Of a stretch of 64,000 nucleotides of DNA, positions 4,937-27,198 are shown piece after piece. The stretch comes from Siphonodentalium dalli. Lineage: Eukaryota; Mollusca; Scaphopoda; Gadilida; Siphonodentaliidae. The DNA is taken from NCBI GenBank assembly GCA_032622095.1, contig CP136062.1:38440918-38504917 (forward strand), written 5' to 3'. The first letter of the stretch is position 1. Each line of letters opens with the position of its first letter. The translations under genes and the position numbers were made by a program. The notes below the pieces were generated by a model. That model did not search any database, had not been told where the DNA came from, and saw only the letters and a list, made by a program, of their open reading frames with translations.

Positions 4937-5121
4937 CTGTGGACGATTTGTAGATTCTATTTATTACATGATCCAAAAACTCTACAAAACATGCATAATA
5001 AATCAAAAAATGGGACGATAAACTAACATCTGCTTCTATGAGACATGCGATGACGTTTCACGGAAGTATGCGTTGTTTGTCCACGTAAAGAAATAGTCCC
5101 AGATAAATAAAGACTCTTTGG

Positions 5122-5160
5122 CGTATTTTAAGGCGTATTTTAAGGCGTATATTAAGGTGT
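5122..5160 (+). repeat. 14 bp tandem repeat, three units
   Basis: GGCGTATTTTAA is repeated with a 14 bp step, the third unit changed to GGCGTATATTAA. The partner is at about 59828-59866. Confidence 0.7.
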
Positions 5161-6912: not shown

Positions 6913-7790
6913 CTAGCAGGGTTACCCGGCGTTGCCCAGGTTAACGTGGTGTGAAACCCTCTGCATATTGTGGATATCTGGTGGAATAGAGGATACTTTT
7001 GTTCAAAGCGTTACACATATTGTCATAAATTATATATCCAAAATACCATCACAAAACATGATTCTTACACACGGAATATAAGTAGTAGCTCACCTTGTCG
7101 GATCGGAGCGATTGTCATTTTGTTTATCGCGATTAATATGTCCCACCAATAAAGAACCATTTATTTATTTACAACTGCGTATACTTCAGACGTTATAACA
7201 TGAACATCATAAACACATTAGTTCGCAAAAATAAAAGATGACAATTAGGTTTTACATAGAGATGTATCAATCAATCTAGTGGGTTTGACTAAGATTTTGA
7301 GGACACCTGGTTATCATATCTCCATGAAGATACAGATGTTTTAAAGAAATGTCCAGGTGCTCCTCTGTGCATTGTGCTATGTACTGACTAATTATTCTCT
7401 GCTTAAAAGAAATGTTGCTATGCAGCTATATCAGCTACATGTGCCCCGACACAGAGCGAGATTTTGAGTTGTTTATTATGTTAGGCGATGAGTCTGTTCT
7501 AAAATATGACAGATATCCTCTGTATATTGGGCAGATATAACCTTGTCAGATGTCAGTATTTGATCCTGATCTGTTTTCTTTCATCTCAGAAGAAATTATA
7601 TTTGACGGCACACTGTGACCACTATTGTTGAACGGGCCTTCTATAAATTTCCATATCTCTTGTAATTTTTTTGTGGAAAATATATTGAATGGGCAAACTA
7701 AATTGTGTTATAATATTAACATGAGCTATTCTAATATTTTAACATGTACCATTATCTTCCTCGTAAAAGGTTACCACTATTAGAACGCCT
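6911..7790 (+). repeat. Second diverged copy of the TACTAGCAGG element
   Basis: It aligns with 4477-4800 and then with about 5370-5860, skipping the intervening 560 bp. Base differences between the two sister copies are more frequent than between the long duplicates, so this internal duplication is older than the one relating 1-9314 to 54749-64000. Confidence 0.6.
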
Positions 7791-9582
7791 TGGTACCACC
7801 TCGATTGTACCCCGTGAAGTTATATATAGAACAAATAGACATATATTTGCAAATATATCTAGGCACCAAATGTTACGTTTTTAATACACACGATTTGATT
7901 CCTCGTATCATTTGAGAAGAACGTGTATGAATTTGATGTTAATTGGCACTAAACATATTTCTATCTGTTGTGGTGACCAGCCCGTCCCTATCTCGGACTC
8001 AAGCGGTGCCACATTTGACATCATTAAACCACAAACTTAGCTCAGTATAGAGATTAGTATATATAAAATTGTTGAAAATTGGCGAGTATACAAATTGGTA
8101 TCAAATTTAGGGTCCCATAACTCTAACCCAAATGATACCAATTTGGCGTCATTAAATTACACGATTAGATTCCTCGTATCACGAAGAAGAATATCTATCA
8201 AGTCTGGTGGAAATCGGCGCTAAACATATTGTTTATCTATTTCTGTGTCTCTCTCGCCCTCTGTGGACCCCTGTCTCGAATGTCACCACGTTTGACATCT
8301 TTAAACCACACAATTAGACTCTTGATATCATGGAGATAAATATTTATAAGTTTGGTGCTAATCGGGGACTAAACCCTTTTTTTATCAAAGTTATGCCCAT
8401 CCCACACCCACACCATCTCTCACACAAACAGCACCAATATAGCGTCTTTAAATCACATGATTGAATTCCTCGTGCCATGGATAAGAACGTGGATCAATTT
8501 GGTGGATTTTGGCGCTAAAATTATTTTTATCAATGTTGTTGCCCCTCATCCTTTCTCGAATGACGCTACTTTTGACAGCAGTAAGCTTGTATAAGTTTTT
8601 GTATAAAATTGGCGAGTATACAAATTCGTATCAAATTTATTGCCCCCATATCTCTCATCCAAACGGCACCAATTTGGCTTATCTAAACCACACGATTAGT
8701 CTTTCTCGTATCACGGAGAATATGTATCAATCTGGTGGAAATAAGCGCTAAACATATTGTTGATCTTTTGTGTGTTCCTCTCACCCTCTATGCATCCTGA
8801 CTCGAATGGCCCCACTTGTGAGAGCTTGTGGCATCCTTAAACCACACAATTAGACTCCTGATATCATGGAGATGATTATTGATAAATCTGGTAAACCAAT
8901 TTTGGTTAAATTTAGTGCCCACTAACCCTCATCTCTCACACAAACATAGCATCTTGAAATCACACGATCAGACTCTTCGTATTATGGATAAGAACGTGTA
9001 TCACTTTGGTGGAAATTGACGTTAAAATTATTGCGTATCAATGCGTACCCTCTCCCATTCAGTTCAACCCTGATTCGAATAACGCCACTTTTGACAGATT
9101 TAAGCTACACCATTAGACTCCCCATACCATGGGGATGATATTGTATATGTGTGGCGGCAATCGGCGACTAAACCCATTCCTATCAAATTGAGTGCCCCTC
9201 CCACAATATTTCGTCCAAACGACAGCAATTTGGACTTGGCGTCTTTAAATAGCACACTTAAGAGTAGACCTTAGATGCCTACAATCGCTAGAGATTTCGC
9301 ATTCATACTGCAATTAGTTTAGGAGTATTCATTGTATCATGGAGAAGAATATATATAAATTGTGGAAATCCGCGCTAAAATTAGTTTTATCAATTTACCC
9401 CCTTCGGTGTGCCCTGACGCGAAAGGCGCCACGTTTGGCATGTTTAAACAACTCCATTAGATTCATCATATCATGGGAATTATAATAAAAAAATTCCGTG
9501 GCAATCGGCGGCAAAACAAATTTCTACCCCTCCCCTTTTTCTGCCCCTGACAACGGCGTCACTTTGGAAAATTCTAACCTAC

Positions 9583-10795
9583 ACCATTATCTTTCTCGTA
9601 ATAAGTTACCCCTAGTAGACCGTTTGGTGCAATCTAGATGGTCCCTCGGCGCTAAACTTAGTTGATCAATTTTGGTGCCACTCCCCCCTTCTGTGCATCC
9701 CAGACTCGAATGGCGCCACTTTTGACGTATTTAAACTATCTATTGCATATGGGTCTCTTCTGACGTCATTGTTATGTTTTGTCTCACTATAACTGAGGAC
9801 TAACGAGTGTATACGTTTCTATAATTTAGTATACAATACTCCCTAAGCGCGACTGCTTTTATATATAGCAAGCAAACAAGTCATGAATATTAATGAGTTT
9901 GTATAGTAGAAGATGGAGATGTCCCGATATATAACACCTCCCCGTTTTAACGAAAGATAGAGCGACAGTATGTCAAAGAGGAAAGATACATAAATGGAAG
10001 GTGATACATCGAAATGTTGCCTCTTTCAATTTACTGTTTAGTAAATCCCACTTCTGACACCATGTTATGTTTTGTCTCTCTAAAAATGAGGACTAACGAG
10101 TGTATACGTTTCTATAATTTATTATACAATGTTAGTGCAGCATGAAAACGATTCATGAATATTTATGAGTTAGTATAGTAGAAGATGGAGATGTCCCGAT
10201 ATATAACATATCCTCGTTTTTACGAAAGATAGAGCCACAGTATCCTAAAGAGGAAAGATACAAAAATGGAAGATGATTCATCGAAATGTTGCCTCATTCA
10301 ATTTACAGTTTAGTACATCCCACTTCTGACACCAGGTTATGTTTTGTCTCTCATTAACTGAGGACTAACGAGTGTATACGTTTCTATAATTTATTATACA
10401 ATGTTCCCTAAGCGCGCGACTGTTTTTATAGCAGAGAAGCTGGAGCACGTGTTAGTGCAGCATGCAGACGATTCATGAATATTAATGAGTTAGTATAGTA
10501 TAGAAGATGGAGATGTCCCGATATATAACAGTCATCATTGACCAAAATTTGGGTTTATACACCGTTACTATATATCGATGCTGATTGGCTATTCGCAAGA
10601 GCCGACATAATACAAAATGTTATCCGCCCCAGTGATGGTTATATTTTCTGACATTTGCTACTGAAAGGCAAAATCCGTCGTCTATCTATATCTTTATTTG
10701 CGAATGTCTGTCTGTCTTCTATTCACGGGGGACCATCTAGATGGCACCAAAGGGGTCTAACATGGGTAACTATTTACGAGGAAGATAATGGTGCG
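9583..10795. repeat. Inverted flanks around a tandem-repeat block
   Basis: The block at 9583-9648 (ACCATTATCTTTCTCG ... AATCTAGATGGTCCC) reappears inverted at about 10723-10795 (GGGGACCATCTAGATGGCAC ... GAGGAAGATAATGGTGC). The sequence between them includes the tandem repeat at 9771-10530. This may delimit one larger element, but no target duplication was identified. Confidence 0.45.
9771..10530 (+). repeat. Tandem repeat of about 280 bp, 2.7 units
   Basis: Units start with GTTATGTTTTGTCTC at 9771, 10063 and 10336. Each contains ACGAGTGTATACGTTTCTAT, then GAAGATGGAGATGTCCCG and a CATCGAAATGTTGCCTC block. The third unit is cut short after the GATGTCCCG block near 10530. Units differ by small indels. 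Confidence 0.9.
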
Positions 10796-10799
10796 GGTT

Positions 10800-11160
10800 A
10801 GTATTTTCTAAAATGACGCTGTAACAGCGGTACTCGGTCCAAGATCAGCATCATTCAAACCGACACACCATGCTGCTGTAGTCCGAGAAGACTTGGTCTA
10901 CTGGGCGACAAAAACATTCATCTGAATGAATGAAAATAGGTTCAACTGTTTCAACCATTGCTCTGTTGTCGGCGATACCCTCCGGTCTCCGGTCGGCGAC
11001 ACCGAGTTAACGGGTGGTGGTGAGATCATTCAACACTAGACGAAATGTGATGTTTTCAGATTTGGCGATTTCATGTAGTTTCCATGTATCGAATATACGT
11101 CACATTTACGATGCGTTTATTCTTATATTAGCAGTTTCTGTATTCTTCACGTTTTATTGG
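10800..11160. other. Non-coding stretch, no gene recognised
   Basis: Moderately GC-richer DNA between repeat blocks, with no open frame of note and no repeat structure that I could resolve. Confidence 0.4.
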
Positions 11161-11165
11161 GTCTA

Positions 11166-11622
11166 AAGGCCCACTTAATTTTCGAACCTCCAGATTACTT
11201 TATATAAAATATATGCTATATTATATATCATTTTAAATCTCCAAGACATTGTATTATCAACTTATCCGGTGTAATAACATGTGGTCATGTTTTTGTTGAG
11301 TTGCCAACGCGTTTTGTCATAAAGATTGAAGTAAAAATCAGTATTATTTCCAATGCAGGGGGAATAACTCTATATATTAAAGATAGAGTTCTTCCCCTTT
11401 CATTGAAAAAGTTTGAATTCCCTCGCGTTATGTGTGCCAGAAAGGGGGTGGGGTCTTTAGCAGTTTTCTATTTCTCTGTGGGCATCTTCTGTGACACAGA
11501 TGTTTCAAATAGTGATGAATTATAGCATTTTAATCATATTTTATGGCATAGATTGTTATTAAAACCGAATATAAGTAACTATACAAAAAATAATCGGCGA
11601 CTCAAAAATTGAGTGGGCCTTT
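11166..11622. mobile_element. MITE with AAGGCCCACTTAATT termini, TA-flanked
   Basis: The left end AAGGCCCACTTAATTTTCGA and the right end TCAAAAATTGAGTGGGCCTT are imperfect inverted repeats, both flanked by TA. The roughly 457 bp size and lack of coding capacity fit a non-autonomous DNA transposon. The open frame at 11301-11525 lies wholly inside it. Relatives are the truncated copy at 6471 and a diverged copy at about 28867-29277. A TA target suggests a Tc1/mariner-type mover, but the family is not certain. Confidence 0.7.
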
Positions 11623-11683
11623 AAATCCCAAGTATTCGCCTACATCTGGATGTTATTCTGGCACATCATATCTCACTATCAAT

Positions 11684-12017
11684 GTATTAATCCTTTCAGT
11701 GCAACGGGCCGATCACGTCGGCCCTAATTTATGGTCTGTAAAAAAAAAAAAAAGCAAACAAACTGGTTAAAACCTTAGGGGCATGTTACAACTCAAAACT
11801 ATCACCAAGAATTCATAGTAATAAGTTTGATGCCCATGATAAACGTAAGATTCCCTGGCACTAAACCTACAAAATAAGTATGTTAAAGAATATAAGAAAA
11901 AAATATTAAAATTGTACAAAATTCAAAAAAATAATAACTGATGAAAAATTGTTAGGCCAATGCATTCTCTTATATATGCGAGGCGACCTATGGTCGACTC
12001 GCATATATGAGAGAATG
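11684..12017. mobile_element. Broken palindromic MITE abutting the left inverted array
   Basis: A TTAA-TCCTTTCAGTG-like left end at 11684 is followed by an AT-rich interior (TTAAAGAATATAAGAAAA) and then by most of the 69 bp palindrome from 11956. The palindrome stops at GAGAATG (12017), where the ACGAGTTTTGTAGTA array begins. The missing CATTGGC end shows that the element was broken at this junction. Confidence 0.5.
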
Positions 12018-12222
12018 TAGTAACTGACGAGTTTTGTGGTAGCTCACGAGTTATGTAGCAACAATCGACGAGTTTTGTGGTAGCTCACGAGTTTTGTAGT
12101 AAAATCGACGAGTTATGTAGTAATTTGGGTTACGAGTTTTGTAGTAAAACATCGACGAGTTTTGTAGTCAAAAACAGGCTAACGAGTTTTGTAGTAATAC
12201 TCATCGAGTTCTGTAGCAACAA
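12018..12222 (+). repeat. Left array of ACGAGTTTTGTAGTA words
   Basis: About nine copies of the word ACGAGTTTTGTAGTA or close variants (ACGAGTTATGTAGTA, ACGAGTTTTGTGGTA) are separated by short variable spacers. The whole stretch 12018-12192 is matched, inverted and nearly base for base, by 22180-22350. It has no coding frame. The spacers are shared between the two arrays rather than unique, so this is not CRISPR-like. Confidence 0.9.
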
Positions 12223-12264
12223 TTTTTAGTCAGTTTCACAGGCGGGTTTGGACTTACACTCTTA

Positions 12265-12880
12265 AACATTTTGGTTTTTAAAAAAACCAAATTTGGTTTT
12301 GAACTTTGTCCCATATATGTAACCAAATTAGGTTTTGATCAATACCATATACCACAGTACCATGTGGTTTTGATCAAAACCAAATGGTATTGAGCACTTG
12401 ATCAATATATGAAACCAATTTTGGTTTTGATCAAAACCAAATGGTATTGAGCACTTGATCCATATATGAAACCAATTTTGGTTTTGATCAAAACCAAATG
12501 GTATTGAGCACTTGATCAATATATGAAACCAATTTTGGTTTTGATCAAAACCAAATGGTATTGAGCACTTGATCAATATATGAAACAAATTTTGGTTTTG
12601 ATCAAAACCAAATGGTATTGAGCCCTTGATCAATATATGAAACCAATTTTGGTTTTGATCAAAACCAATTGGTATTGAGCAATTGGTTTCATTCAAAACC
12701 CAAATTGGTATTGAACTTTTGTCCCATATATGTAACCAAATTAGGTTTTGATCAAAACCAAATACCAAGCGCCAACTAGTTTTGATCAAAACCCAAACTG
12801 GTTTGATATATGAAACCAATTTTGGTTTTGATAAAAACCAATTTTGGTTTTGATAAAAACCAATTTTGGTTTTGACCAAA
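12265..12880. repeat. 57 bp tandem array of GGTTTTGATCAAAACC palindromes
   Basis: The central part repeats exactly every 57 bp (CAAATGG at 12381, 12438, 12495, 12552 and 12609). Each unit carries the 16 bp palindrome GGTTTTGATCAAAACC and a GAGCACTTGATC segment. Because 57 is a multiple of three, the minus strand stays open for 196 codons (12328-12918) with a repeated 19-residue unit. I regard that frame as a by-product of the array, not a gene. A smaller group of the same word lies at 21486-21605. Confidence 0.9.
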
Positions 12881-14051
12881 AAGTTCCTTTTTGCACAATT
12901 TATTGATAAATGTGCCATACAACATACTTATGCAACCTTAAAGGGTACTGTACACTAAATCCACCCATTTATTGTACCATATCCATACTCAACAAAATAT
13001 ATGCAACACATGAATGAATTTGGTTTTCCAAGTTCGACATGTAAAATTATAATGAAAATTAATTTATGACCCAAGTCATAAATTGATTTTTATTATAATT
13101 ACCAATCCATTGATATATTAAAGGGCTAATTATAAAAAGGCTTTAGACAGTCTGAAACAGATGCCATCAGATTCCATTTCCAGTACAAAAATTCAGCTGA
13201 TCACTTGCATGCTACAGGCTATCAAATTTCTATATTATGCCTTTCATACCCTCCCACAAACATACATGTACATGTATATGGGTTCTTTTTGCCAATTTGT
13301 CAAATCTTAAATTATACGAAAACCCATTATTTTTGATGGTTTCTACCATAATAATGTTGGTTGCCAAGTAAACAGAAAATAAACGGTGACCATGTAATTT
13401 TTTTGTTTACGGTTATCACTTATTTACTGTTTACACAGTCCTGAAATTATTATGATAGTTGGTACGCAAACAGTCAAGTGTTTCTCACATAATTTTGTGA
13501 TTAATTTTTCAAGTGTGCATGCTGGCATAGAACTAAATTCCACAAGATGCTGCAAGATGTGGCAAATTACATGTAAAATGTCCTGAAATCACAAACCTCT
13601 GAGGACTATTCTACCATTTAAGTGCTGTCAGTAACCTTAAATTGAGGCATGTAATTTGCCTGCACATGTGAGGGCCACCCCATTTATGAATCATATCATA
13701 AGCAACCAAAATTAATAGTCGAAGATGAAGTAAATTGTCCAAATGACATAATTGGTTGCATCAATGTTGAATGAAGTTTTAAGATAAACATCAATGAAGA
13801 CACAGTGAGATTTTGAAAATTAAACTTTAATTCAAACATATCCAGCAGGAATAATTGTCATCCTAGCCATTCTTCCACAGCAGTGTATATTCCTGATGTA
13901 TGTGCACACCTCACCATTGCAACAATTGCAATGAATTAACACTTAATATATAGTTCATCACACCCTTCTTATATTGAACATTCCCAAGAATGACAGCTCA
14001 TCTGTTTTTACACCTGTCATGCAGTAGAAATTTAAAGATCAGCAAACTCCT
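12881..14051. other. AT-rich stretch, no gene recognised
   Basis: A small hairpin centres near 13070 (AATTAATTTATGAC against GTCATAAATTGATT). Otherwise I see neither repeat periodicity nor coding frames. It could hold introns or the 3' region of the candidate minus-strand exon at 14052-14266. Confidence 0.4.
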
Positions 14052-14266
14052 TTATATTCGCATCTGATGAATATAGCAGCACTTGACAGCATAGCATGTT
14101 ACTAACTTCCCACAGGCTGCACCACACTTGTATATTGTGGTGCAATATTTATGAATGAAAAGTTGACGAATAACATATTGTATCTGCACAGATGACACAC
14201 ATGCCTCCTCTGTATGCTGTGCACATTCTGGTACTAAAGTTTCCAATGCCAGTGAACGAACATACT
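14052..14266 (-). CDS. Candidate terminal exon, function unknown
   Basis: On the minus strand a pyrimidine-rich acceptor (CCTTTCTTTTCAG) lies at about 14267-14279 and is followed by about 71 open codons ending in a TAA stop at 14052. The predicted segment starts EYVRSLALETLVPECAQHTE, is cysteine-rich in its second half and ends QMRI. I recognise no domain. No obvious AATAAA follows within 200 bp, and no upstream exon was identified. A second open frame at 14359-14541 (-) lies in an inverted repeat and is probably not coding. Comparison with transcripts would be decisive; chance is a serious alternative. Confidence 0.2.
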
Positions 14267-14460
14267 CTGAAAAGAAAGGCATAAAATACTATGTTTAGGA
14301 AAAGTCAGATTTAAAGACATATATTGCAGACTTATTTCATTGAATATTAAAAGCATTGTTAGGACATGGCAAAATATGCCCATGGCAATTCCAACAAAAG
14401 GCCTTTAACTCTGGTGAAATTGACGTGCTGAACCAAAACACTATCCCCACCAATAACCTG

Positions 14461-14682
14461 ATGTGCTTTTAAAGACAAATTAAAGTGATGTGAAACAATC
14501 CAGTGAGGTGTTCCCGGACCTGCTGATGGAATAATAAACAATCATGCCAAAATAATTTATCCAAATAGTCAGAAAAATTTGGATAAATTATTTTGGCATG
14601 ATTGTTTATTATTCCATCAGCAGGTCCGGGAACACCTCACTGGATTGTTTCACATCACTTTAATTTGTCTTTAAAAGCACAT
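14461..14682. repeat. Near-perfect inverted repeat, 106 bp arms, 10 bp loop
   Basis: The arms 14461-14566 and 14577-14682 pair apparently without mismatch around AGTCAGAAAA. A third copy of the right arm, with one visible substitution, lies at 14833-14941 and extends further to match the left flank (CAATAACCTGATGTGC inverted). The order suggests a foldback element or local inverted duplication of recent origin. A hairpin this tight is also a place where assemblies and libraries fail. Confidence 0.9.
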
Positions 14683-15231
14683 TTCAGAGAATTCAACGGT
14701 TGAACCACGCACAAATGTAAACATTTACTACTTTATTCAGGGCACCTTATTGAGTATAAACATTACTGAAATGATTGTCCCACTACTATTATACTAGTCA
14801 CTGACTTTAATTGGTGTTTTCTGACTATTTGACTAATTATTTTGGCATGATTGTTTATTATTCCATCAGCATGTCCGGGAACACCTCACTGGATTGTTTC
14901 ACATCACTTTAATTTGTCTTTAAAAGCACATCAGGTTATTGGATATTTACTAGGCCATTTATAAGGCTATCATGGCTATGGTTTATATAGTGTCATCAGT
15001 ATTCTGTGAATTAAAGTGCAAAATGCAGTGATTATTCACCCCCCCCCCCCAATTGCCCCTGTTTTTTAAATCTCCAGTTAACCTTCACAGGTATTATTTT
15101 ATTTAGTCTTATTCCATACCATGACACTTATAAGTACACAATCTGCTAGACATTATTGGTTTGGACTCTTTTCCATAGGTAGGGAATTTAGACCTAAATT
15201 CAACAAACGTACAACATAAGGCTTTTTGTTA

Positions 15232-15555
15232 AAGGTGCACAATCTGATCTGATTGTCCCCGGATCATCCAGTTACAACATGAACAACAACGGAAATTTAC
15301 ACCGAAAGCCAATAGTCATCAAACATTACTTTTCATAATGTTATCTTCCGAAATTGATTTGTGATGACCTTGCGGGACCTCTCAATATCTTGTATATCTG
15401 CATATTTCTAGAAGAAGTAAGTGGAATGTTTGGTAGGCTGACAAATAATCGAGGTGGATAAAATTAACAGATTTGATAACTCAGAGCTTTGATGGATAGG
15501 ATTCTCAACTCAAATAAAATATTATTTAAACCCGAAGCTGAAGAAATAGTTATTT
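15232..15555. mobile_element. Degenerate MITE of the AAGGTACTCAATCC family
   Basis: The left end TTAAAGGTGCACAATCTGAT and the right block CTGAAGAAATAGTTATTTAG resemble the ends and subterminal part of the better-preserved element at 16943-17226, including a CAGAGCTTTGATGG phrase. The right terminus is weak. Confidence 0.45.
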
Positions 15556-15756
15556 AGGGGGCGTCAAATCAGATTATACATCTTCTAAGTGATGCGTATT
15601 TATATAAAAACTTACATGTACAGTTGTAAATTGAATACATCCAAGTTCCAACTTTGGTCCAGTGTACGTCTTCCAGTCAATTTACTTCCACAGCAAGACT
15701 TCTAGCTGACAGTCCTCTATAAAATATAACATACAGGTCTTATAAAATGATACCAA

Positions 15757-16002
15757 CAAGCCTTGAAATAGTGTGTCTGTCATTTGCAGAATGAGGTCCC
15801 CAGAGAAAGAATTTAGTTATGGTACCCCAAATAGTGGGCTAGCATCACCCTCTGTGAACCTCCTTCTGCTGAGGTGTAAGCAGCATGAGCTCTCCAGAGG
15901 GTGCATTTGGTGATGCTAGCCCACTGTGTGGGGTACCATCACTAAACTCACCCTCTGGGGACATCATTCTGCAAATGACAGGCACACCATTTCAAGGCTT
16001 GG
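15757..16002. mobile_element. Foldback MITE of about 245 bp
   Basis: Long inverted arms: CAAGCCTTGAAATAGTG... pairs with ...CACACCATTTCAAGGCTTGG, CATTTGCAGAATGA with TCATTCTGCAAATG, and GTGGGCTAGCATCACC with GGTGATGCTAGCCCAC. The unpaired centre is about 45 bp. No target duplication is clear. The short overlapping open frames on both strands at 15926-16185 cover its right arm and are not credible genes. Confidence 0.75.
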
Positions 16003-16942
16003 ACATGCACTAGTATGTGAAATGACATGTACATCTATAGATTTACTTAAAATATCACATATTGTTCTGGATATAACTCTTTTCAATGTACTGGCCACGA
16101 CATATAGGATTTCAAACAAAGAAAACATTATTGCAGGCATGTCATACATGTAGCATGGTTTGATGACAGGTGAAATACCCATCATGGGTGGGGGTGTTAG
16201 TAATCACATTCTTCATGACTTCGGGGCGGGCGGCCTTCATTTAGGTTATAGTTTAGAAATAACATTTATCAAATTATGATAATTTCCTCAAGAAGATACT
16301 ATTATATAGTATAGCATAATTATTATATGAATGTGATATTATTCACAAAACACGCTTTGTGTCAGAGAAAATGCAAGTCGAGCAAAAAGAGCAGTGAATT
16401 GTTTATAAGCAGAGTCACGATAATGCATCATTTCCTTATATTTGGATTTGTGTTTGGTGCATCTACAACTTACAACTCACAATACTTTCATAGTAAATTC
16501 CTTATTTGGTCTGTATTACCATATTTTAGTTAAGAGAGAATTCTAACTGGATAAGGGGGTGAGCTCGGAAAATAATTCAGGCACGTATGCTGATTTTTAC
16601 TTTTCGACCCTAGTTGGGACTCACTCATCCCCACATCCAAATTGTTTTTCTGTTTTCGGCAGTTTTTTCGACCATATTTGGACACCCAACCCCCATTTTA
16701 TCACTAAAACAGAGATTTGCGAGGGTGGGGGGCGGGGGGGGGGGGGAATTCACTGTAAACAGCTGTATATGAATTTCTGTGCATTCATGGATGTTAACAT
16801 AACATGTAAATAGGAATGTGTCATTTTGGGGTCATTCGGCCATCTTGGATTTCAAAATTTGCAACAAAATACAACACGATAACTGCCTGCAGCCAGTTTA
16901 GCAGTTAGAATTACATTATTTCTCTTATTCTAAGGTGTTTTA

Positions 16943-17226
16943 AAGGTACTCAATCCGATCAGACGCTCCTAAATTACTATTTCTTTGGCTTCGGGGTTAA
17001 AATATATTTGAATCGTGTCAAGGAACCTACCTGTCAAAGCTCAGCGTGATCAGATATAGATTTTTCAAGTTAGTTATTTAAATTCTTTCTGGGCCAGAAA
17101 CTAGAGTTTAAACAGAAAAAATTGAGTGGTAAATTATTACCGCTCGAGTGTTCTGTTTAAACCAATTAATAACCCTGAAGCCAAAGAAATAGTAATTTAG
17201 GAGCGTCTGATCGGATTGAGTACCTT
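16943..17226. mobile_element. MITE with AAGGTACTCAATCCGATC inverted termini, TA-flanked
   Basis: The left end AAGGTACTCAATCCGATC and the right end GATCGGATTGAGTACCTT are perfect inverted repeats. Pairing continues inward for about 50 bp (CCTAAATTACTATTTCTTTGG against CCAAAGAAATAGTAATTTAG). Both ends are flanked by TA. At 284 bp it is non-coding. A longer relative lies at 36581-37052 and a degenerate one at 15232-15555. Its AAGG start and TA flanks resemble those of the element at 11166. Confidence 0.85.
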
Positions 17227-17364
17227 TAAGCCAAACTTATTGCAAAAACAGTAAAAAAAACATGCAGGAAAAAAAAATTTGAGTTGCGGAAAGCTTTTTT
17301 GGTCCCGTCGACCACACATCCACCCCGGCATACGTGCACTGAAAATAATGGTGTGCTGTTACAT

Positions 17365-17950
17365 GAGCCGCGTCAACTCGTCAAACCGAGTTCGCTGGGA
17401 CAACTCGGTTAGCTAGCTGGGACAACTCGGTTAGCTAGTTGGGACAACTCGGTTGACGTTGACTACCGAGTTGTCCCAGCTAACCGAGTTGTCTCAGCTC
17501 ACATAACAGCATGATTGATTTGTCCCCGCAGACTGTGTTGTCTCGGCTAAGTGTACCTTCAGACGACCACGATACACATCGTAAGTGGAGGCATCGGGCC
17601 CGATGAGATCGTGGATAGTTTGTTCAGACGATTGCGATGTCACGTGCATTATTCTATCGTAGGTTGTTCTAAAGCATGTGATTGACTACCCTACGACCAT
17701 TTCCAGCTACGATTTTTACATACACACGACTGCGATTACGTCGCAAGTGGATGTAACCAAGGATACGCCACGATATCGTATCTAAAATCAAACACTGTCT
17801 GATATTATTTATTATTTTTTGTTCTACGATTTAGACGTTAGCATGCGCACTCCATCTTCCTGTTACTTCCTACGACGAAAATCCTTCCACTTACGATTGA
17901 ATCGTGGTCGTCTGAAGGTTCACTAACCGAGATGTCCCGGCTCATGTAAC
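17365..17950. repeat. Cluster of CCGAGTTGTCCCAGCTAACC words, split by a MITE
   Basis: Direct and inverted copies of AACTCGGTTAGCTAGCTGGG-type sequence occupy about 17370-17500. Related words resume at 17923-17945 (CTAACCGAGATGTCCCGGC). The MITE at 17551-17923 lies between them and probably landed inside the cluster. Confidence 0.65.
17551..17923. mobile_element. MITE with CCTTCAGACGACCACGAT inverted termini
   Basis: The left end GTGTACCTTCAGACGACCAC and the right end GTGGTCGTCTGAAGGTTCAC are inverted repeats with one mismatch. Inward pairing continues (CGTAAGTGGA against TCCACTTACG). The 373 bp element is non-coding. The flanks are themselves inverted relative to each other (CTCGGCTAA and CTAACCGAG) because the host site is a palindrome cluster, so the target duplication cannot be read with confidence. 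Confidence 0.75.
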
Positions 17951-18213
17951 ATAACAAGCCCACGCGAGGAAATTCTTAATTTATTTTATAAGTCAACAAG
18001 ACAGGTAAAAAAATTGCTATCATGACTTCATTGTGTTAACAGTAGACACTGATAGAACCACATGAATAGTGGTCATTATATCAATGTGAAGACAAATATT
18101 TTGAGAATATATGTCTGCCGACGGATCATGAGGGAAACTAAAAGCTGCCTCGAGGTAATTTATTTTTTTAGGAAAATTATACGGGTAATCAGTTTGTATG
18201 CCGTAATTTTCTG

Positions 18214-19301
18214 TAGTGATGTTCCGATAATCGGAATCGGAATCGGCCATCGGCCGATAATAGCCCATCGGAAATTAATCATACCTCGCAGTTGAACATC
18301 GGCTTTTACCGATTGTCAAAATAAATAAAAACGTTCTAGTATCTAAGCGCAATGTGCACGCTTTAATAAACATACGCAATACAACTGTAGTATTGAATGT
18401 AAAACGCAGTTGTAACAGCCTAAAAAGAAGCCATTGGCATCATCAAAGCAGTCTGATGTGATGATGTATTATAAGAATGGCAATACACATGCCCGACATC
18501 CCGTGTAATATGAAGTTATTGGTTCAATCGCGTTGACACGAAATAGATTCAAAGAAAGCTTTAATTAAAAAGCTGACCTGATTACAGTGAGGCTTCCTCT
18601 AGAGCACGTGTCATGTGACGTCACATGCTATGTCAATAACTTGAAGCACACACTGAATGAATTAATACAGTTGTTATCAGAACTGTCTTCAATAACGATC
18701 AACGTTAGTAGGGGCATAATTAGCTTTTTCGTCTGTACAACGTATGCTTTGAAATACGCTTAGCTCCACGTTGAACTTGCGAAACAAAAATTGAGCAGGC
18801 GGAACTATAAAAGCTTCCGAGTTGTTAAAAGATAAAAGGTGTGACCAATGGAAACTTGGGAAATCTCAGACAAATATGACAGCAATTATTATCCATCAAT
18901 CAAAATTTAGTTAATAATCATCGCCATTCCATACATTGTTGCAACTTACAAGTATTCAATCAAGACTTTTACTCCGCATGCAAGTGTTCCACACATGGTC
19001 ATAACGTTACTCTGAGTCGGCACCTTTGATCTCTTTGTCAAAACAACTACCGGTATACATCAAAGGAAGCACACAACCGACGTCGGCAGAAATACTGTCA
19101 CGACAGTGTGTATATATTTCTTTGATATATTTAGCTTTGAAACTATGCGGGATATGGAGTGCATTGGGTGTATATAAGTCCATTATAGGAACAAACGCAC
19201 AATATATATAAACATCGGAATCGGAAACGGAAATCGGCCGATTGTGCCTCCAGTTATCGGAAATCGGTCCGATAAGCTTTTTCATTATCGGAACATCACT
19301 A
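18214..19301. mobile_element. hAT-like non-autonomous element, 8 bp target duplication
   Basis: The termini TAGTGATGTTCCGATAATCG and TTATCGGAACATCACTA are inverted repeats of the type common in animal hAT elements. Subterminal ATCGGAATCGG-like words cluster at 18225-18310 and 19210-19280. The flanks ATTTTCTG (18206-18213) and ATGTTCTG (19302-19309) match at seven of eight positions, as expected for an aged hAT target duplication. The 1088 bp body encodes no recognisable transposase; its short open frames are not credible. Confidence 0.85.
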
Positions 19302-19734
19302 ATGTTCTGCCTATATGACCTTACCTGTTTGGGTCCGTGGGCAGCAAGTAGACACAAGTGAGGCTCAGTGGTCGTGCAGCATGTGCTAATTTCATAATTT
19401 TCAATAATTCGAATATACGAATACATGCAAATAATTTTTTGATTTGTAATTTGTGCATGATTAAAATAGGTCGTAAATATCGGGTCCATTTATTGAACGA
19501 CGTATAGTCATGTTCATATAAATAAAACATCATACAACTGTTGTTAGCATTAAGTTTTTTATATTTAAAACAATAATTATTCAGTGGGTGCGGGTGGAAA
19601 AAGTAACCCCTTAGCCTTAGTAAGCCCATCAAATTTTTATGTCTATGTTGTTACATAATTATCTTCATTTTGATTATATGATTAATTAATGAAATATTAT
19701 AAAATTCAAACAGGTCTGGGTGATCCATTTGTCA

Positions 19735-20965
19735 ATTTTGTGCTTAAGAATAAATGATAATGATTTGTGCTCATTTGTAAATAATTTGCGCTTAAGCGTA
19801 AATAATTTGTGCTTAAGAGTAAATAATTAGCCCTTTTGCGCAAATAATGAATAAATGTGAAAATGCTTTCCTTCTCTTACAATTTAGTTAGACCGGTGTC
19901 AGAGAAGGTACTGACAGGAAGACTTTAGACCAATTGGTCTAGACGTTTCAGACCGATCGGTCAAATAAAGAACATTCGATGGTTCACCAATATGGGATGC
20001 GATTTTAACATTTGTACCTTATTTGCGCTTGAGCATAAATATGATCCATAATTTTTTGATTCTAAAGTTTAAGTAATTTTCGCATGGCCTCCCATACACC
20101 TATTCACATAGACCTGATAAATTCCCATGAATCATGATAATTTTCAAACGGAATGACAACTTTTTATCAAATAAACTGCCAAATGTCTTTTTCAACTTTA
20201 AGATTTGTTTTTATGAAAATTTTATGTCTTATCTATTGGCAAATTGTCAACATTCAATCTGTTTAGACTGATTACCCAACACATTTAGACAGATCGGTCT
20301 AAATAAAGATTGATTTGTGGTTCACCCATATTGGTATGGGAGGCCAAATTCATATTTAATAGCTACTTATGCTTAAGGGTTCAAAATAGATTTAATATTG
20401 AGAGAATCCAATTAGTCATAAAGCACTGAAAATTGAAAAATACACTTAAGCGCACTGCCATTACGCTTAAGCATAACATATTTGTATAGCCTTATTACCT
20501 TACATATAATGATATAATCTAAGCTCGATATTTGTCAAAAGTTACTAGCATCAGGAATTGGCTGCATCCATTTCAGCTTCAGGGGAGTTTTCACATATGG
20601 AATATGAATTACGATTAAGCGTATTGACATTACGCTTAAGCATAACGACATTACGCTCAAGCGTAATGGCTTTACACTTAAGTTTAATAGATGATGCTTT
20701 GAAAAACATAATGGAAATCTGAAATTACGCTCATGTGTAATGTCTTAATGCATTACACTTAAGCGTAATTGGCTATTAAATGTGAATTTGAACTCCCATA
20801 CAATATGGGACATGGTTTTAATATTTACTTCTTATTTGCACTTAAGCATATATATGAAAATTATGATCTTTTCGTGCTTAAGCGTAAATGATTTGCATTT
20901 GAGCAAAATAATTTGCATTTACGCGTAAGTGATTTAAGTTTAAGCGCAAATAAGGAATAAATGTA
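19735..20965. repeat. Cluster of CGCTTAAGCG palindromic words
   Basis: Words such as TTGCGCTTAAGCGTAAAT and TTACGCTTAAGCATAA recur many times at 19740-19850 and 20380-20960. Longer diverged blocks also repeat, for example a TTTTTATCAAAT..CTG..AAATGT phrase at 20161 and 21054. A related cluster sits at 37110-37530. It is non-coding. Confidence 0.8.
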
Positions 20966-21485
20966 AAAGTACATGCCATTCCATAAACATGACCTAAAGT
21001 TCTAAACCTGATAAATTACTGTGAACATGACCAATTTGAAACAGCATGACAAATTTTTATCAAATTTACTGAGAAATGTATTTTTCAACTTGAAGTCTTT
21101 TTGATGAAAATTTGTTATCTCTTATCCATTGACAAAGGCATAATCTTATTTGTTGAGTTTGAAATGTTCTGTCACTTCTCTATCGTGTTGGTGCCCATAT
21201 GAGCTTTTGTGGTGATACAAAATATGTGTGAATATTTCGTGTAAAGTTGAAGTCGAAACCGAAAGCATCCTATAATTAAAAGTTTGTAGATACATACATG
21301 TCAAGATTCCCGAAGATAAGATTGTCCGGCCATCAGGAAACATATCTGTGATCACCCATTGAACCAGTCTAAGTTATTTGCTGTGATTTTAACACTATAA
21401 TGTGTTTCAGTCGCTTCGAAATAAAATGGCGACCTCCAATCTGGCCGTGTGCTCCACGGAAACAGTAACGATAACTCTTGAAGAC

Positions 21486-21605
21486 TATCGGTCAAAACCA
21501 ATATATGGTATTGAACATGTCCTCAAAACCAAGGGATTCAGATTTGGTTTTGATCAAAACCAAGGGAATCAGATTTGGTATTGATCAATACCAATAAAAA
21601 CCGAA
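21486..21605. repeat. Right group of GGTTTTGATCAAAACC words
   Basis: Two or three copies of GGTTTTGATCAAAACC or GGTATTGATCAATACC occur here, the same word family as 12265-12880. Together with the array at 22180-22350 this mirrors the left-side order and supports an inverted outer structure for 12018-22350. Confidence 0.75.
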
Positions 21606-22179
21606 TTTATTGTCAGTGTAATACAATCGTATATAGTAAATGCAATGTTTTTTTGTGTAAGTGTGTGTGGTGGACGTTAATGACGTTGTAGCTCAACTTG
21701 ATGTTGGTCCCTCGTCACTGCTGCTTCGTTTCTCATCAGATCTGAGCCAAACTTCGTACCTAGAAGTACTATGGCCATGTTATTAACTTGAACCTGGCCC
21801 TCATTACGTCAGACGTCGCGTCCTATTTCTTAATACCATGTTGTATTTGGTGAAATAGAATAAACTATCTATCGTGGTGGAAAACCAAATGTGGTTCGTC
21901 ATTTTTCTCTCAGTGCATAATGGATTCGCGGCTTGTGCACTTTAAGAAATAAACGCAACCAACAGTAACAGTGAAACAAAAGAGAGCGGCGAGTCATGCA
22001 TGCGTACCATACAGTTATTGTTACCAATAATCGTTTCACTTTGTTTTTGCAATATAGACAACTCTACGCCACCTCTTGGTTCTTGGTTCGTTCTTGGGGA
22101 TACCCATGTGATTTGACAAAGTAACACTCTGCATATTCAATCATAATACATGTAGTTGAAAAATCAAAGAAAAAAAAAC

Positions 22180-22350
22180 CTCGTTAGCTTGTTTTTTACT
22201 ACAAAACTCGTCGATATTTTACTACAAAACTCGTAACCTGAAATTACTACATAACTCGTCGATTTTACTACAAAACTCGTGAGCTACCACAAAACTCGTC
22301 GATTGTTACTACATAACTCGTGAGCTACCACAAAACTCGTCAGTTACTAC
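22180..22350 (-). repeat. Right array of ACGAGTTTTGTAGTA words, inverted
   Basis: This is the reverse complement of 12018-12192, with matching words and spacers and few differences. The sequence continues outward as CATAACTCGGCGTAACACAGGG (22350-22371), which the left array lacks because it is broken at 12017. The outer CACAGGGTA also follows the solo palindrome at 3560, which hints that a palindrome element once flanked this side too (speculative). Confidence 0.9.
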
Positions 22351-22395
22351 ATAACTCGGCGTAACACAGGGTATATGGGTTGATACAAAAATCGG

Positions 22396-22650
22396 ACTTG
22401 TGTTATTTCGAATATAATTTATACCTATATTGCACGTATATGTGAAATTTAACGCATCCATAATGTGTTATATTTCGAAAATAAATGCACGTAAATTGCA
22501 CGTATATTTGAAATTTAAAGCATCCATAAATGTGTTATTTGGTATATAAATTCACACAAACTGCACGCATATTTTAAATTTAACGCATTCATAAATGTGT
22601 TATTTAGAAAATAATTCATCCGTAAATAACACCTATATTTTAAATCGAAC
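22396..22650 (+). repeat. Degenerate tandem repeat of about 66 bp
   Basis: Phrases of the type AACGCATCCATAAATGTGTT recur near 22451, 22517 and 22583, with TGCACGTATAT-type segments between. It ends about 200 bp before the sulfotransferase exon and probably lies in its upstream intron. Confidence 0.65.
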
Positions 22651-22821
22651 GTGCGCGTATTTTCCACGTAAATGTTGAAGAATACGTGTCCGTAAATACA
22701 ACGTATTATTAGGTTACTTGTTTTGGAAATTGACATGATCCGTAATTAAATTCCAAATTTGGTGCAGGGCGGTTGACTAATATTCCTGAAAGTTCATGCT
22801 GCTTTGAATTTTCTTCTCCTG

Positions 22822-22836
22822 CTCACTTTCCACAGG
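22822..22836 (+). promoter_or_regulatory. Splice acceptor of the sulfotransferase exon
   Basis: A pyrimidine-rich tract (TTTTCTTCTCCTGCTCACTTTCCACAG in two adjoining parts from 22809) ends in CAG before GTGACGGTG. It keeps the frame in phase 0. An alternative acceptor (TTGGTGCAG, ending 22767) has a weaker tract. Confidence 0.7.
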
Positions 22837-23768
22837 TGACGGTGATGAAGCTGATCGAAGCCAGGTGCCGGAACTCTGACGCAATATCTGGTAGAGCGAA
22901 TACCGTAATTTACTGGACTAACTTGAAATCTGCTCTGTGCGTGGTTCCAAAAGCAGCAAGCACACTACTGCGCTCGGGAATATCGGACGAGTTGGAATCA
23001 AGAGTGGGAAAGCCGATGGTGGCCAAGGTCAAGGTCTGGAGTAGCCCGGATGTGTTCCGATACATGTTTGTGCGAAATCCTTGGTCGAGGTTATGGTCTG
23101 GATATGTCGATAAATTGGTGATGCTCGGATTCAGAAATAACAAATTCCCAATCTTCAATGCATTGAATCTGGGCGATTGTAGTAGAATTCCAACATTCGC
23201 AGAATTTATTGCATATCTCGCTAACCACGAGAACAATCCGGGAGTTATTAACCAGCATTGGGCCCCGATCACGTTGTTGTGTGATCCCTGTTACTTTAAA
23301 CCTCATTTCGTTGGTAAATTGGAAACGTTCGACGATGACCTGAAGTACATTGGACAAAAGCTTCACATTACTGACGAGATTCGTATTGCAAACGACAAAG
23401 AAGGTAAAGCTAGGAACAAATTCTTGATCCCAAATCAACTCAATTTTTACCTCAATAACAATGCATCGTGTGGCCTGTCTATTATGGGAATTTTGCATCG
23501 GATTTGGGTTGCTAGCATACTGACAGGTCGCATAAACAACAAAGCAGTCTTCCCCCAGGCTGAGCTCGAAGCGATCCAACCATTTACATTACAGCGATCG
23601 GATCTTATCGTTGACATATTTAAAAAGTACAGCCTTGAGGGGGAGGCTCGACGAGCGCAAAAGAATCTTCTACGAGATAATGCCTACGCGCAAATTCCAG
23701 ACGACCTTAAATCGCGCATCAGACGAATGTATAATGACGACTTTACGTTGTTTGGATACGACCCGTGA
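22836..23768 (+). CDS. Carbohydrate sulfotransferase (CHST8-14 type), 3' terminal exon
   Basis: Enzymes of this family (Sulfotransfer_2) move sulfate from PAPS to sugars of glycosaminoglycans or glycoproteins in the Golgi lumen. The exon has about 310 codons. Counting from V22 of the frame that opens at 22773, the 5'-phosphosulfate loop is CVVPKAAST (56-64), the 3'-phosphate site is MFVRNPWSRLWSGYVDK (98-114, with R101 and S109), a QHWAP..LLCDPC block spans 161-173, VGKLETFDDD 180-189 and the usual YNDDFTLFGYDP ends the protein. The start is set by an acceptor (CTCACTTTCCACAG) ending at 22835, in phase 0. The first ATG (22845) is inside the exon, and no membrane anchor is present, so upstream exons are expected but were not identified. 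The frame is intact with all key motifs, so it is probably functional. The sugar specificity cannot be read. Frames on the other strand are shadows. Confidence 0.92.
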   Translation: MTVMKLIEARCRNSDAISGRANTVIYWTNLKSALCVVPKAASTLLRSGISDELESRVGKPMVAKVKVWSSPDVFRYMFVRNPWSRLWSGYVDKLVMLGFRNNKFPIFNALNLGDCSRIPTFAEFIAYLANHENNPGVINQHWAPITLLCDPCYFKPHFVGKLETFDDDLKYIGQKLHITDEIRIANDKEGKARNKFLIPNQLNFYLNNNASCGLSIMGILHRIWVASILTGRINNKAVFPQAELEAIQPFTLQRSDLIVDIFKKYSLEGEARRAQKNLLRDNAYAQIPDDLKSRIRRMYNDDFTLFGYDP

Positions 23769-23809
23769 CGACTGCCATTGTACCTGAAGATTGTCCGTGA
23801 ACTAGGAAG

Positions 23810-24320
23810 CCACCCCTTGCCAAGTGGTCCTGCTAATATGCTATGATGCTGGTGGTCCTGCTGAATTGCTATGATGCGCATAGGGCAAACTGATGTCGTT
23901 ATGAAATAGTACCGTTATATTTTCTAAAGTTATCATTTTCGCGGTGTTTGACTAATCAGAGCGATTTGAGAAAAAACAGGTGTTCGTATGAAACACTCAG
24001 GAACATATATATTTTTGAAAAATATCATAATGCCTGCGCTGGTGTTCCTAAAATTACGGAATAACCCATCTTGATCATAGTCAATATTCAACAATTTATA
24101 CATTTAGTATTAAAAATATTTCGCAATAAATATATTTTTGAATGTTTGATGCGCATAATGGCTTTTCCTGGATATGTTCAGTTATCGAAACACCGCGATA
24201 AAGATAAATTAAACAAATATAACGGTACTTTTTTATAACAACATCATTTTGCCCTAACATCATCATAGCAATTCATCAGGACCCAACCGCATCATAGCCG
24301 GAACACTTGACCAGGGGTGG
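23810..24320. mobile_element. MITE directly downstream of the sulfotransferase stop
   Basis: The left end CCACCCCTTGCCAAGTGGTC and the right end GAACACTTGACCAGGGGTGG are inverted repeats. Pairing continues inward for about 100 bp (GCTGAATTGCTATGATG, AGGGCAAACTGATG, AGTACCGTTATAT). AAG flanks both sides. It begins 42 bp after the stop codon, so it probably forms part of the 3' untranslated region. An AATAAA at 24125-24130 lies inside it. A half copy is at 32138-32250. Confidence 0.8.
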
Positions 24321-25385
24321 AAGCCTGTTCTTGATCTTGAGAGGTTTCCGGCGACCTTGTAGGACCGTGATTCGGGTTGTCTAAATGTCTGCGTTCATGC
24401 ATTCTGGAAATGGTTGAATCTGAACATGCAATGATTGTATTCAGTATGCAACGTTGTCAGCTGTTTAATTTTTGTTTTCGTTTGGACGTTAATCATTATC
24501 GTGTTATTTGTTATACATTATAGTGTTATTTGTTATACATTTGTTATTTGTTGATGTTAACATTGTTCACCCTAGCGTGGTAAGTTCTTCACAACAGAAC
24601 ATTACGATATAAAGGGACATAATGCATTCACAGTGGGAACACGTGTGTGGGGTGGTCATAAATTGTAAAACAGTCATCACTAAAAACATGGAGAAAGAAA
24701 CCCTCTTTCTTATTTGTATTAATAACTCTCCAGATAAAGCATTTAAAACATGTGTTATATAAATCATACTGCGTTAGTGCCAGTCATGTGATCAACATAT
24801 AGCAGAGAAAATTATGATAAATTCGTAACAAACGTTAGGTAACATATTAGATACATAGATATATTGTGTATGTATTATGTGCATATATTTCGTATATTTA
24901 TCGAATTATTTGGCCACCGGATTGAAACGAGAGCGATAAATTGCATGCACTACACCCCATTCCCTGTAATTATTTGAATGCGGTTCGGTTCTACACCCGG
25001 TTCTGTAGTTATACGCCTTGCGGTGTGTTAGTTTCTACATTGTCGAATTTCAAACTAAACCGGAGCGTATTTCAAAGTAATTTTGACTATCTCTTCATTT
25101 CACATTGTTTATAAAATTCAACATAAAAAATTTAAAAAGTAGAATTGAGCATTTATATTTGTCTACCGTTGTCATCGGTACCCGATGTTGTAACGTTTGA
25201 CTGAAATAAATGCTAAATTTCTTAAGGAGGCAACCCATTCGTGAATTATTAAAAAAAATCCCAATTTCAGACAATAAATTTGAATGAAAATATCATTCTT
25301 TATAACTAACGTATTTTTTAAAATAGAAAGCAATCATTTATTCGTGCAGATCGATAGACAGTTTGACGGGAAATATTAAAAAAAA
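24321..25385. other. Non-coding stretch, no gene recognised
   Basis: AT-rich DNA with short direct repeats (GTGTTATTTGTTATACATT at about 24500-24550). No credible exon or element termini. Confidence 0.4.
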
Positions 25386-25815
25386 CAAAAACACTGCATT
25401 ATCTTGACTATCTAGAATATGCTCTCAGTCTATCATCTGAAAGCACGACTGTCTGCTAGTAAATAAATAAAATCGTTTTCACTACATATATAGTATTTGG
25501 CAGCCATTTGCTGGACTATTTATGTATCGGTGTAAAGGACCCAAACAACATAAAACAACAAATATTCAGCCCCGTTCTCAATAACCTGGCAGATATAAAT
25601 ACTCATTATATATTGATTCGTGCTTTCAGACATTATGTAGTTTCATGGTAATTTTTCCAAATAAAATAGTTCTGAAAATGGCTGCGAAAAAAACTAACAT
25701 ATGCAACGAATTTTTTTTTTTTTTCTCGCAGACAGTCATGACTTCAGATGGTAGACTGAGCGCATTCCCTGGTTGGGTTGATATTATAGATAATGCAGTC
25801 TGTTTTTTTTTAATA
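25386..25815. mobile_element. Degenerate foldback, about 430 bp
   Basis: The left block CACTGCATTATCTTGA...CTCAGTCTATCATCTGAA...GACTGTCTGC pairs with the right block GCAGACAGTC...TTCAGATGGTAGACTGAG...TAGATAATGCAGTC. The arms are about 75 bp with several mismatches and indels. The open frame at 25645-25971 overlaps it and contains a poly-Phe run from a T tract, so it is not a credible gene. Confidence 0.55.
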
Positions 25816-26770
25816 TTTCCTGTCAAACCGTTTTATAAAGCACTATTTTTCATACTTCGAACATATCTCTCACACTGTGATGGTAAAGAGTTGCTGCTAT
25901 ATAGTACTACAGCTTATACACTATTTATAAGGGATAATGATTTGTTGTCCTTCAAATTGATACATGTATAGCTAGAAATTGAGATTTTTTTGAAAATTCA
26001 GATGGGTCGCCTTCTAAAAGATAACTGTTATGTCTGGTGTTGAATTGTGCAGGCAGAAAGTCGCAGGATTAACGCCATGCAACAATCCGATAAATGAATG
26101 ACATTTGTTCCAGTGTCAGAATATAACTTTCGAGGAGGTGTGGTTTAGTGTGATGCTGTCCTCGTGACCACACACATAATCTAAGCTATATTTCTATCGG
26201 ACACTTAATGACTGAATATCAGCCTAAGTATTGTCAGGTCTACTTTTTTCGGCGACAAATAACGCTAAGACTAATTTGTCACATCATGCAGTGGTCACGA
26301 CGGAGACGACATGCTAACTTGACAAGACGTGTCGTGGCTTGTAAAATCTTGTCTGGATTCTCGTCATGACTTCTTCATTTTTCGTTTTCATTAAGCGAAC
26401 CAACAAAATTGGTCTAAATTAAATTAATAAACCTAAATCGCATCTGAATTCTTCGTAAGTTGTGAAGTAGTATAGATACTTTCATTTTTATCGCGATTCT
26501 TCATTTCCAATTCCGCGGTTTTTTTTTTGCAATCTCCACACGGTTGCTAACCGAAAGTCAAGTGACAATTTCTCCAAAATCTATGCCCGCGATCTTGAAA
26601 AATCACTGATGGATATAGAAACAAATATGACGTCATTCACCTGCCTTAGGTATTTGCACCCTTGTTGGTTGCTATAACTCCATAGAACCTAATTTGGAAC
26701 CGAATCTCATTGAAATGGTCGAGAGTGTTCCGTAGATCGACTGAACTAAACAAACGAATTCTGAATCCCT
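25816..26770. other. Non-coding stretch, no gene recognised
   Basis: No repeat structure or domain-coding frame found. Short T tracts at about 26520. Confidence 0.4.
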
Positions 26771-26773
26771 TTA

Positions 26774-27195: not shown

Positions 27196-27198
27196 TTA

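Follow-up and report, generated by a model that had tools for sequence, protein, structure and literature searches.

Mirror-ordered repeat arrays in Siphonodentalium dalli as possible ends of a decayed, Foldback-like DNA transposon of about 10.35 kb

The closest described systems are DNA transposons with long, internally repetitive terminal inverted repeats (TIRs), as portrayed in excerpts of the papers cited here. Tm1, a Mutator/Foldback element of root-knot nematodes, has composite TIRs that contain short tandem motifs of about 14 bp (PMC3169594). Tetris from Drosophila virilis is a non-autonomous element with multi-domain TIRs, including tandem repeats, and a variable middle domain that lacks coding capacity (PMC4079207). 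Galileo, a member of the P superfamily, has Foldback-like long TIRs whose tandem repeats contain binding sites for its THAP domain (PMC3688188), and chromosomal inversions in Drosophila have been generated by this element (PMC3573991). In the oyster, the Cg_HINE non-autonomous Helentrons are mobile elements that carry short satellite-like arrays, in exceptional cases two array types in succession (PMC7492417); excerpts of PMC10294476, PMC8268682 and PMC5139131 provide the background on bivalve repeats.

The locus analyzed here (Table 1) belongs to a 64-kb window, that is, the whole stretch of S. dalli DNA that was analyzed. The preliminary description of this window proposed that array families in mirror order bound a single large transposon. 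The outer arrays form one inverted repeat: the part of the left array that is shared with its partner (12015-12190) and the reverse complement of 22176-22352 are identical in 170 of 177 columns, with 6 mismatches and 1 gap, which bears out the match of about 170 bp, spacers included, that had been reported. The inverted local score is 317 compared to 16.4 +/- 2.3 for 200 shuffles, and this is the strongest distant repeat pair of the window. Sites of ACGAGTTTTGTAGTA (at most 2 mismatches) occur 8 times on the plus strand (12027-12182), 8 times on the minus strand (22197-22345) and nowhere else in the 64 kb, against an expectation of 0.125 under a first-order Markov null (8 simulations). The units follow each other at 19, 22, 19, 21, 24 and 23 bp in the left array and, counted from the second unit, at 19, 22, 19, 21, 25 and 23 bp in the right one, so that the two arms have a common register in both order and spacing. 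The right array exceeds the left one outward by one unit, and the left array is broken mid-unit at 12017. Single-strand folding of the outer units is no better than that of shuffles (z 0.6), and the possibility that this is a hairpin array was ruled out for this reason.

Table 1. Coordinates of the arrays, their junctions and the interior elements within the window
Feature	Position	Strand	Description
Palindromic MITE copy	11881..12017	+	AT-rich part plus hairpin 11963-12017; dispersed family
Left outer array	12018..12219	+	8 units of ACGAGTTTTGTAGTA, <=2 mismatches, 19-27 bp spacing; a more diverged ninth
Left inner array	12268..12881		units of 57 bp containing palindrome GGTTTTGATCAAAACC; 5.6 copies (96%) and additional diverged ones
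Interior	12882..21485		several passenger elements
Further interior stretches with inverted ends	14450-14942, 15757-16001, 16940-17229, 17555-17922		
TTAA-flanked MITE	16940..17229		60-bp TIRs, 98%
hAT-like non-autonomous passenger	18214..19301		TIR TAGTGATGTTCCGATAAT; 8-bp duplication
Right inner array	21486..21594		degenerate; ~31-bp units, palindrome family as in left inner array
Spacer, right inner to right outer array	21595..22175		581 bp; without homology to the 48-bp left spacer
Right outer array	22176..22364	-	8 units; inverted partner of left outer array
CACAGGG	22365..22371	+	matches exactly the last 7 bp of the MITE broken at 12017

The inner family, defined by GGTTTTGATCAAAACC with at most 2 mismatches, has 11 sites at 12331-12846, 2 at 21546-21577 and none elsewhere in the 64 kb (null expectation 0, 8 simulations). 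Given that it sits directly inside each outer array and only there within the window, the mirror order of the two families is real. With random placement of two inner clusters (2,000,000 draws), mirror nesting within 581 bp arises with a frequency of 1.5e-4, and placement within 581 bp of different outer arrays, on either side, with a frequency of 6.6e-4. The inner arrays are related to each other (score 53 direct and 60 inverted versus a 200-shuffle maximum of 30), and their units fold better than shuffles (z -3.7 and -3.4). Because the inner unit is palindromic, inverted and direct orientation of this family are undecidable. The layout is asymmetric: the gap between outer and inner array measures 48 bp on the left side and 581 bp on the right. 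A run of 9 A (22170-22178) borders the longer spacer.

These features also bear on the alternative given in the preliminary description, in which a cluster of outer and inner array was long ago duplicated in inverted orientation; the copy would have been rejoined some 10 kb from the original, and the inner arrays would have turned over since. The mirror order of both families, the ragged ends and the missing target-site duplication (TSD) are all compatible with such an event. However, divergence is much greater in the inner arrays than in the outer ones (96% identical), and the two spacers are unrelated, so that a single duplication would need strong later turnover; together with the MITE pieces that lie outside both arms (see below) and that a duplication does not predict, this makes such an origin unlikely.

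The left outer array adjoins a palindromic MITE copy that is broken at 12017, where it ends at ...GAGAATG without the terminal CATTGGCACAGGG. This copy is 81-97% identical to those at 3467, 49913-50205, 50721, 51410-51630 and 58224, and its hairpin folds better than shuffles (z -9.6). Directly after the right outer array comes CACAGGG, in the same orientation as in the left MITE, as would be expected after insertion of the unit into the MITE; the CATTGG of the MITE is absent at the right end. An equally good match to the 13-bp missing tail is present in 126 of 40,737 15-bp stretches (0.003; known MITE copies left out). When the next two bases, TA, are added, only 1 of 40,737 stretches matches equally well; this criterion was chosen after looking, and no more than two independent MITE copies have the TA (3560 and 50721; the copy at 58317 is a duplicate of that at 3560). 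When the left MITE remnant is fused to the right flank and the product is aligned with an intact MITE, the outcome does not discriminate and counts against the MITE argument: 1,801 of 19,197 random flanks score equally well, as do 4,363 of 5,751 when the joint is allowed to slide. In view of this test and of the 0.3% chance match, the MITE pieces on the two outer sides are only suggestive. Had a simple inversion broken the MITE at one of its breakpoints, the MITE end on the right would be reversed; the CACAGGG at 22365 is forward, and this scenario was rejected.

No TSD was found; the longest word common to both flanks is 6 bp (TATATG), a length that is also reached by 44% of random pairs. Loss of a TSD is possible because the left end is truncated. 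The array ends are ragged, with no matching clean boundary between the two outer arrays.

Within the interior, the hAT-like element reported by the preliminary description was recovered, with a target duplication (ATTTTCTG/ATGTTCTG) that matches at 7 of 8 positions. A search of 12 stop-masked frames of 12880-21881 yielded no Pfam match above the cut-off, in line with the earlier statement that no transposase was recognized. No mutual homology was found between the two 2.6-kb ends of the interior, and inverted homology deeper than the arrays was not found in the stretches tested. A crude screen of the plus strand (8000-22700) for a start codon followed by a hydrophobic segment was negative. A retro-insertion origin of the 581-bp spacer is unsupported; the longest word shared by its ends has 8 bp and consists mostly of T.

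Analysis of the window as a whole brings in a second explanation, namely two independent copies of a dispersed two-array module, in opposite orientations and about 10 kb apart, with host intron or intergenic DNA between them. The module would consist of short satellite-like arrays on small elements comparable to the Helentron-type elements of the oyster, where non-autonomous Helentrons are described, in the excerpted text, as scattering short arrays (PMC7492417). Dispersed repeats are abundant: the first 54.7 kb contain 20 distant pairs (separated by over 3 kb, 80 bp or longer, identity of 75% or higher), 10 inverted and 8 direct once the array pair and its shifted alignment are left out. A 54.7-kb duplication may be a false one that contains a second allele of the locus. 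Base composition is alike in the unit (0.358) and its flanks (0.373 and 0.364), and, given a good splice acceptor on the exon at 22836, the right outer array is probably intronic. These observations, as well as the ragged boundaries that no TSD joins, are those expected of separate copies. Against this stand the rank of the array pair as the strongest of the distant pairs, the lack of a third copy of either array in the 64 kb, and the MITE pieces on both outer sides, which separate copies do not predict. Altogether, this explanation is the main rival to a single element, if somewhat doubtful. Searches for host exons or a transposase on the plus strand of 9000-12001 and 23700-28201 gave no Pfam match, a sequence search with the sulfotransferase ORF against PDB chains gave no match (E <=0.001), and the window had 0 matches each in Rfam (gathering cut-offs) and in tRNA scans.

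The best reading, to which we assign about an even chance, is that 12018-22364 (about 10.35 kb) is one DNA transposon, decayed and non-autonomous, that works in the manner of Foldback elements (Tm1, Tetris, Galileo). The arms with their common register, the mirror-nested inner family, the MITE pieces on both sides and the internal passengers with their own ends argue for it; the failure to find a TSD, a coding trace or deeper inverted homology, the ragged ends and the commonness of inverted pairs in the window argue against it. The single transposon proposed by the preliminary description is partly supported. From this locus alone, one old disabled element and two separate repeat copies are indistinguishable as sources of the facing arrays, and the former is unproven. 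If it was one element, its TIRs would be internally repetitive, ~20-bp units forming the outer domain and palindromic units the inner one. The element would have been mobile and inserted as one unit near the end of the palindromic MITE, which, if uninterrupted, would run ...GAGAATGCATTGGCACAGGG straight into 22372 onward. The left junction would later have been shortened between two ATG triplets, which cost the MITE its CATTGG and the left array its first part, and the MITEs and the hAT-like element would have landed inside afterwards. By analogy with Drosophila Galileo, the array units might offer multiple sites at which a transposase provided in trans would bind.

The array word has one match in genome_contigs (257 Gb scanned), in a sheep-gut MAG (L001), where it forms a 32-bp tandem duplication upstream of an AAA_14/DUF4143 gene. 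Given that 257 Gb were scanned, this match is regarded as chance; among 295 genomes sampled from the order of L001 the exact word occurs in L001 alone (1 of 295) and the reversed control word is equally frequent (1 of 295), and a prokaryotic origin was rejected. Three array patterns, one MITE core and one inner-unit pattern gave 0 matches in viral_contigs, and the left outer array had no match in phages or plasmids. The literature searched contained no match for the exact 14-letter array word, for DUF4143 with an upstream intergenic motif or for long TIRs in mussel. That the locus represents a family of large transposons outside the known superfamilies, with two-tier array ends (~20-bp units outside, palindromic units inside) acting as a multi-site transposase platform and with TSD-less insertion next to a palindromic MITE tip, appears highly improbable.

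If the unit is one element, the class in which end repeats are transposase binding sites would gain a large Foldback-like member, and the unit could be used as a query for its autonomous partner; two separate copies would amount to ordinary repeat clutter. Given the inversions attributed to Galileo in the excerpted source (PMC3573991), this distinction also bears on the reading of the locus. Inverted terminal repeats of tandem short units, as in Foldback elements, are present, with 8 units per arm; a TSD of ~8-10 bp and another copy within the 64-kb window were not found. Because of the TSD result, the unit is not assigned to the Foldback group. Non-autonomous Helitron/Helentron elements have a 3' hairpin and a fixed terminus, with neither TIR arms nor a TSD; here, no TSD was found, but paired inverted arms are present. 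The arrays of Cg_HINE, as far as its excerpted description goes, are central repeats and, unlike those described here, are not paired and inverted at both ends (PMC7492417). Galileo, with its THAP sites in tandem repeats, is a model for the array units but has 7-bp TSDs in most copies and a P-type transposase (PMC3688188; PMC3573991), whereas at the S. dalli locus no TSD was found, nor any coding trace in the frames of 12880-21881. Tetris, like the proposed element, is non-autonomous, with multi-domain TIRs and a variable, non-coding middle, and differs by its ~220-bp units, TIRs of up to 1,735 bp and 8-10 bp TSDs (PMC4079207). The excerpted account of Tm1 reports 8-10 bp TSDs in 45 of 53 complete copies and a putative transposase in one group, neither of which was found here; Tm1 nevertheless resembles the S. 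dalli unit in its short tandem motifs, in the average identity of 93% between the TIRs of one element, and in one copy that lacks a TSD and has an apparently truncated TIR (PMC3169594).

Sequences matching ACGAGTTTTGTAGTA with up to two mismatches form eight units on the plus strand in the left outer array and eight on the minus strand in the right one, with no site elsewhere within the 64 kb. The arm at 12015-12190 is an inverted copy of that at 22176-22352 (170 identical positions, 6 mismatches and 1 gap), in agreement with the preliminary description of a match over about 170 bp including spacers, and the units keep the same register, with spacings of 19, 22, 19, 21, 24 and 23 on the left and, counted from the second unit, 19, 22, 19, 21, 25 and 23 on the right. 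Together, the matching arms and spacings indicate that the outer arms are a single copied block, not arrays grown separately. The ends of the block are ragged: the left array is broken mid-unit at 12017 and extends one to two units further inward than the right, which extends one unit further outward.

A survey of repeat pairs in the first 54,748 bp (at least 80 bp, 75% identity, more than 3 kb apart) identified 20 distant pairs, 12 inverted and 8 direct. The outer-array pair is the strongest of the 20 and, with its shifted alignment, accounts for two of the inverted ones. Because such pairs are numerous, inverted pairing alone is commonplace here, whereas the identity, register and nesting of the array pair are not. 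Separately, positions 1-9314 are repeated at 54749-64000 (~99% identity, period ~54.7 kb). This is either a tandem segmental duplication or an artefact in which two haplotypes appear as a duplication; in the latter case another allele of the array locus may sit just beyond the window. Two of the tandem arrays (see the table), at 39.5-41.1 kb, lie within a ~1.1-kb tandem duplication (95%).

Coordinates of features in the window
Feature	Position	Details
Left outer array	12018-12219	+
Right outer array	22176-22364	-
Left inner array	12268-12881	
Right inner array	21486-21594	
TTAA-flanked MITE passenger	16940-17229	
hAT-like passenger	18214-19301	target duplication 7/8
Sulfotransfer_2 open frame	22746-23768	E 2.7e-28
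Other MITE copies	3467; 49913-50205; 50721; 51410-51630; 58224	
Tandem arrays	37875-38416; 39472-39999; 40579-41112; 53214-53812	175-176-bp and 105-bp units

The palindromic inner unit, GGTTTTGATCAAAACC, is found with up to two mismatches at 11 sites in 12331-12846 and 2 in 21546-21577; the rest of the window has none. These clusters are related to each other, scoring 53 direct and 60 inverted (mean 20.2 and maximum 30 in 200 shuffles). When two clusters are placed at random, they are nested within 581 bp inside the outer arrays in 1.5e-4 of draws and lie at most 581 bp from them, on either side, in 6.6e-4. Of the mirror order proposed for the two families, the nesting therefore stands, whereas the inner orientation is masked by the palindrome. 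No homology above the shuffled level, direct or inverted, was found between the two spacers (48 vs 581 bp), between the 2.6-kb ends of the interior or between the outside flanks of ~0.5 kb. An inverted duplication appears improbable. The main rival, two separate copies of one two-array module, is a serious though minority possibility; non-autonomous Helentrons are described as scattering short arrays in oyster (PMC7492417).

A palindromic MITE copy (11881-12017) adjoins the left outer array and terminates at GAGAATG, followed by array sequence, the ATG being common to both sides. Among seven MITE ends in the window, GAGAATGCATTGGCACAGGG is exact in six and differs by two bases in one; through the 54.7-kb repeat, the ends at 58317 and 3560 are duplicates of each other. 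CACAGGG occurs ten times, seven times as a MITE end; one of the three other sites, at 22365, immediately follows the right outer array in the orientation expected for a 10.35-kb unit inserted into this MITE. CATTGG, six bases of the MITE end, is absent at that joint. With known MITE copies excluded, the missing 13-bp tail is matched equally well in 126/40,737 stretches of 15 bp (0.003), 277/40,698 of 25 bp (0.007) and 507/40,638 of 40 bp (0.012); adding the TA that follows the tail in two independent copies, a post hoc choice, leaves 1/40,737, 4/40,698 and 9/40,638. Alignment of the joined flanks to a MITE copy is not discriminating (1,801/19,197 random flanks equal; 4,363/5,751 with a sliding joint). 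The MITE pieces are thus suggestive of insertion, not proof. The complete copies at 49913-50205 and 51410-51630 both lie inside a larger inverted duplication; each of their terminal repeats is a nearly perfect ~69-bp hairpin (CCCTGTGCC...GGCACAGGG) around AT-rich sequence, and the former copy contains 31-bp repeats.

No target duplication of the unit was found, the longest word common to both flanks being 6 bp (reached by 44% of random pairs). In 12 stop-masked frames over 12880-21881, no Pfam family scores above cut-off (the top score, DUF4316, E 0.021, is below that family's); the hAT-like and MITE passengers are real. The window is AT-rich and eukaryotic-looking (GC 36.7%), tentatively DNA of a mollusc or comparable marine invertebrate. 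Given the clean splice acceptor CTTTCCACAG at 22826-22835, upstream of the sulfotransferase frame, an exon open over 22836-23768 is suggested to begin at 22836, ~470 bp downstream of the right outer array's end; this array is probably intronic. An array 15-mer also occurs twice in a 32-bp tandem repeat upstream of an AAA_14/DUF4143 gene in a sheep-gut Oscillospiraceae MAG (L001:5021-5093), judged to be chance.

The identity, register and nesting of the arrays favor the single large transposon originally proposed, and the lack of a target duplication and of a Pfam trace does not; a non-autonomous element with internally repetitive ends is the best fit, at roughly even odds. The repeated units in its ends would bind transposase made elsewhere. 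Since the TSD, a defining feature of Foldback elements, was sought and not found, the unit is not classed among them, although it might work like one. If it is an element, it would belong to a structural kind already described, in which short tandem units make up the inverted ends; no superfamily is assigned and the novelty is modest. Its interest lies in the two-tier array ends and the testable prediction of an empty site. The proposed role of the array units resembles that described for Galileo, where the THAP domain binds sites in TIR tandem repeats (PMC3688188), and the inverted array ends resemble the composite, tandemly repeated TIRs reported for Tetris (PMC4079207) and Tm1 (PMC3169594), one copy of the latter having no TSD and a TIR that looks truncated.
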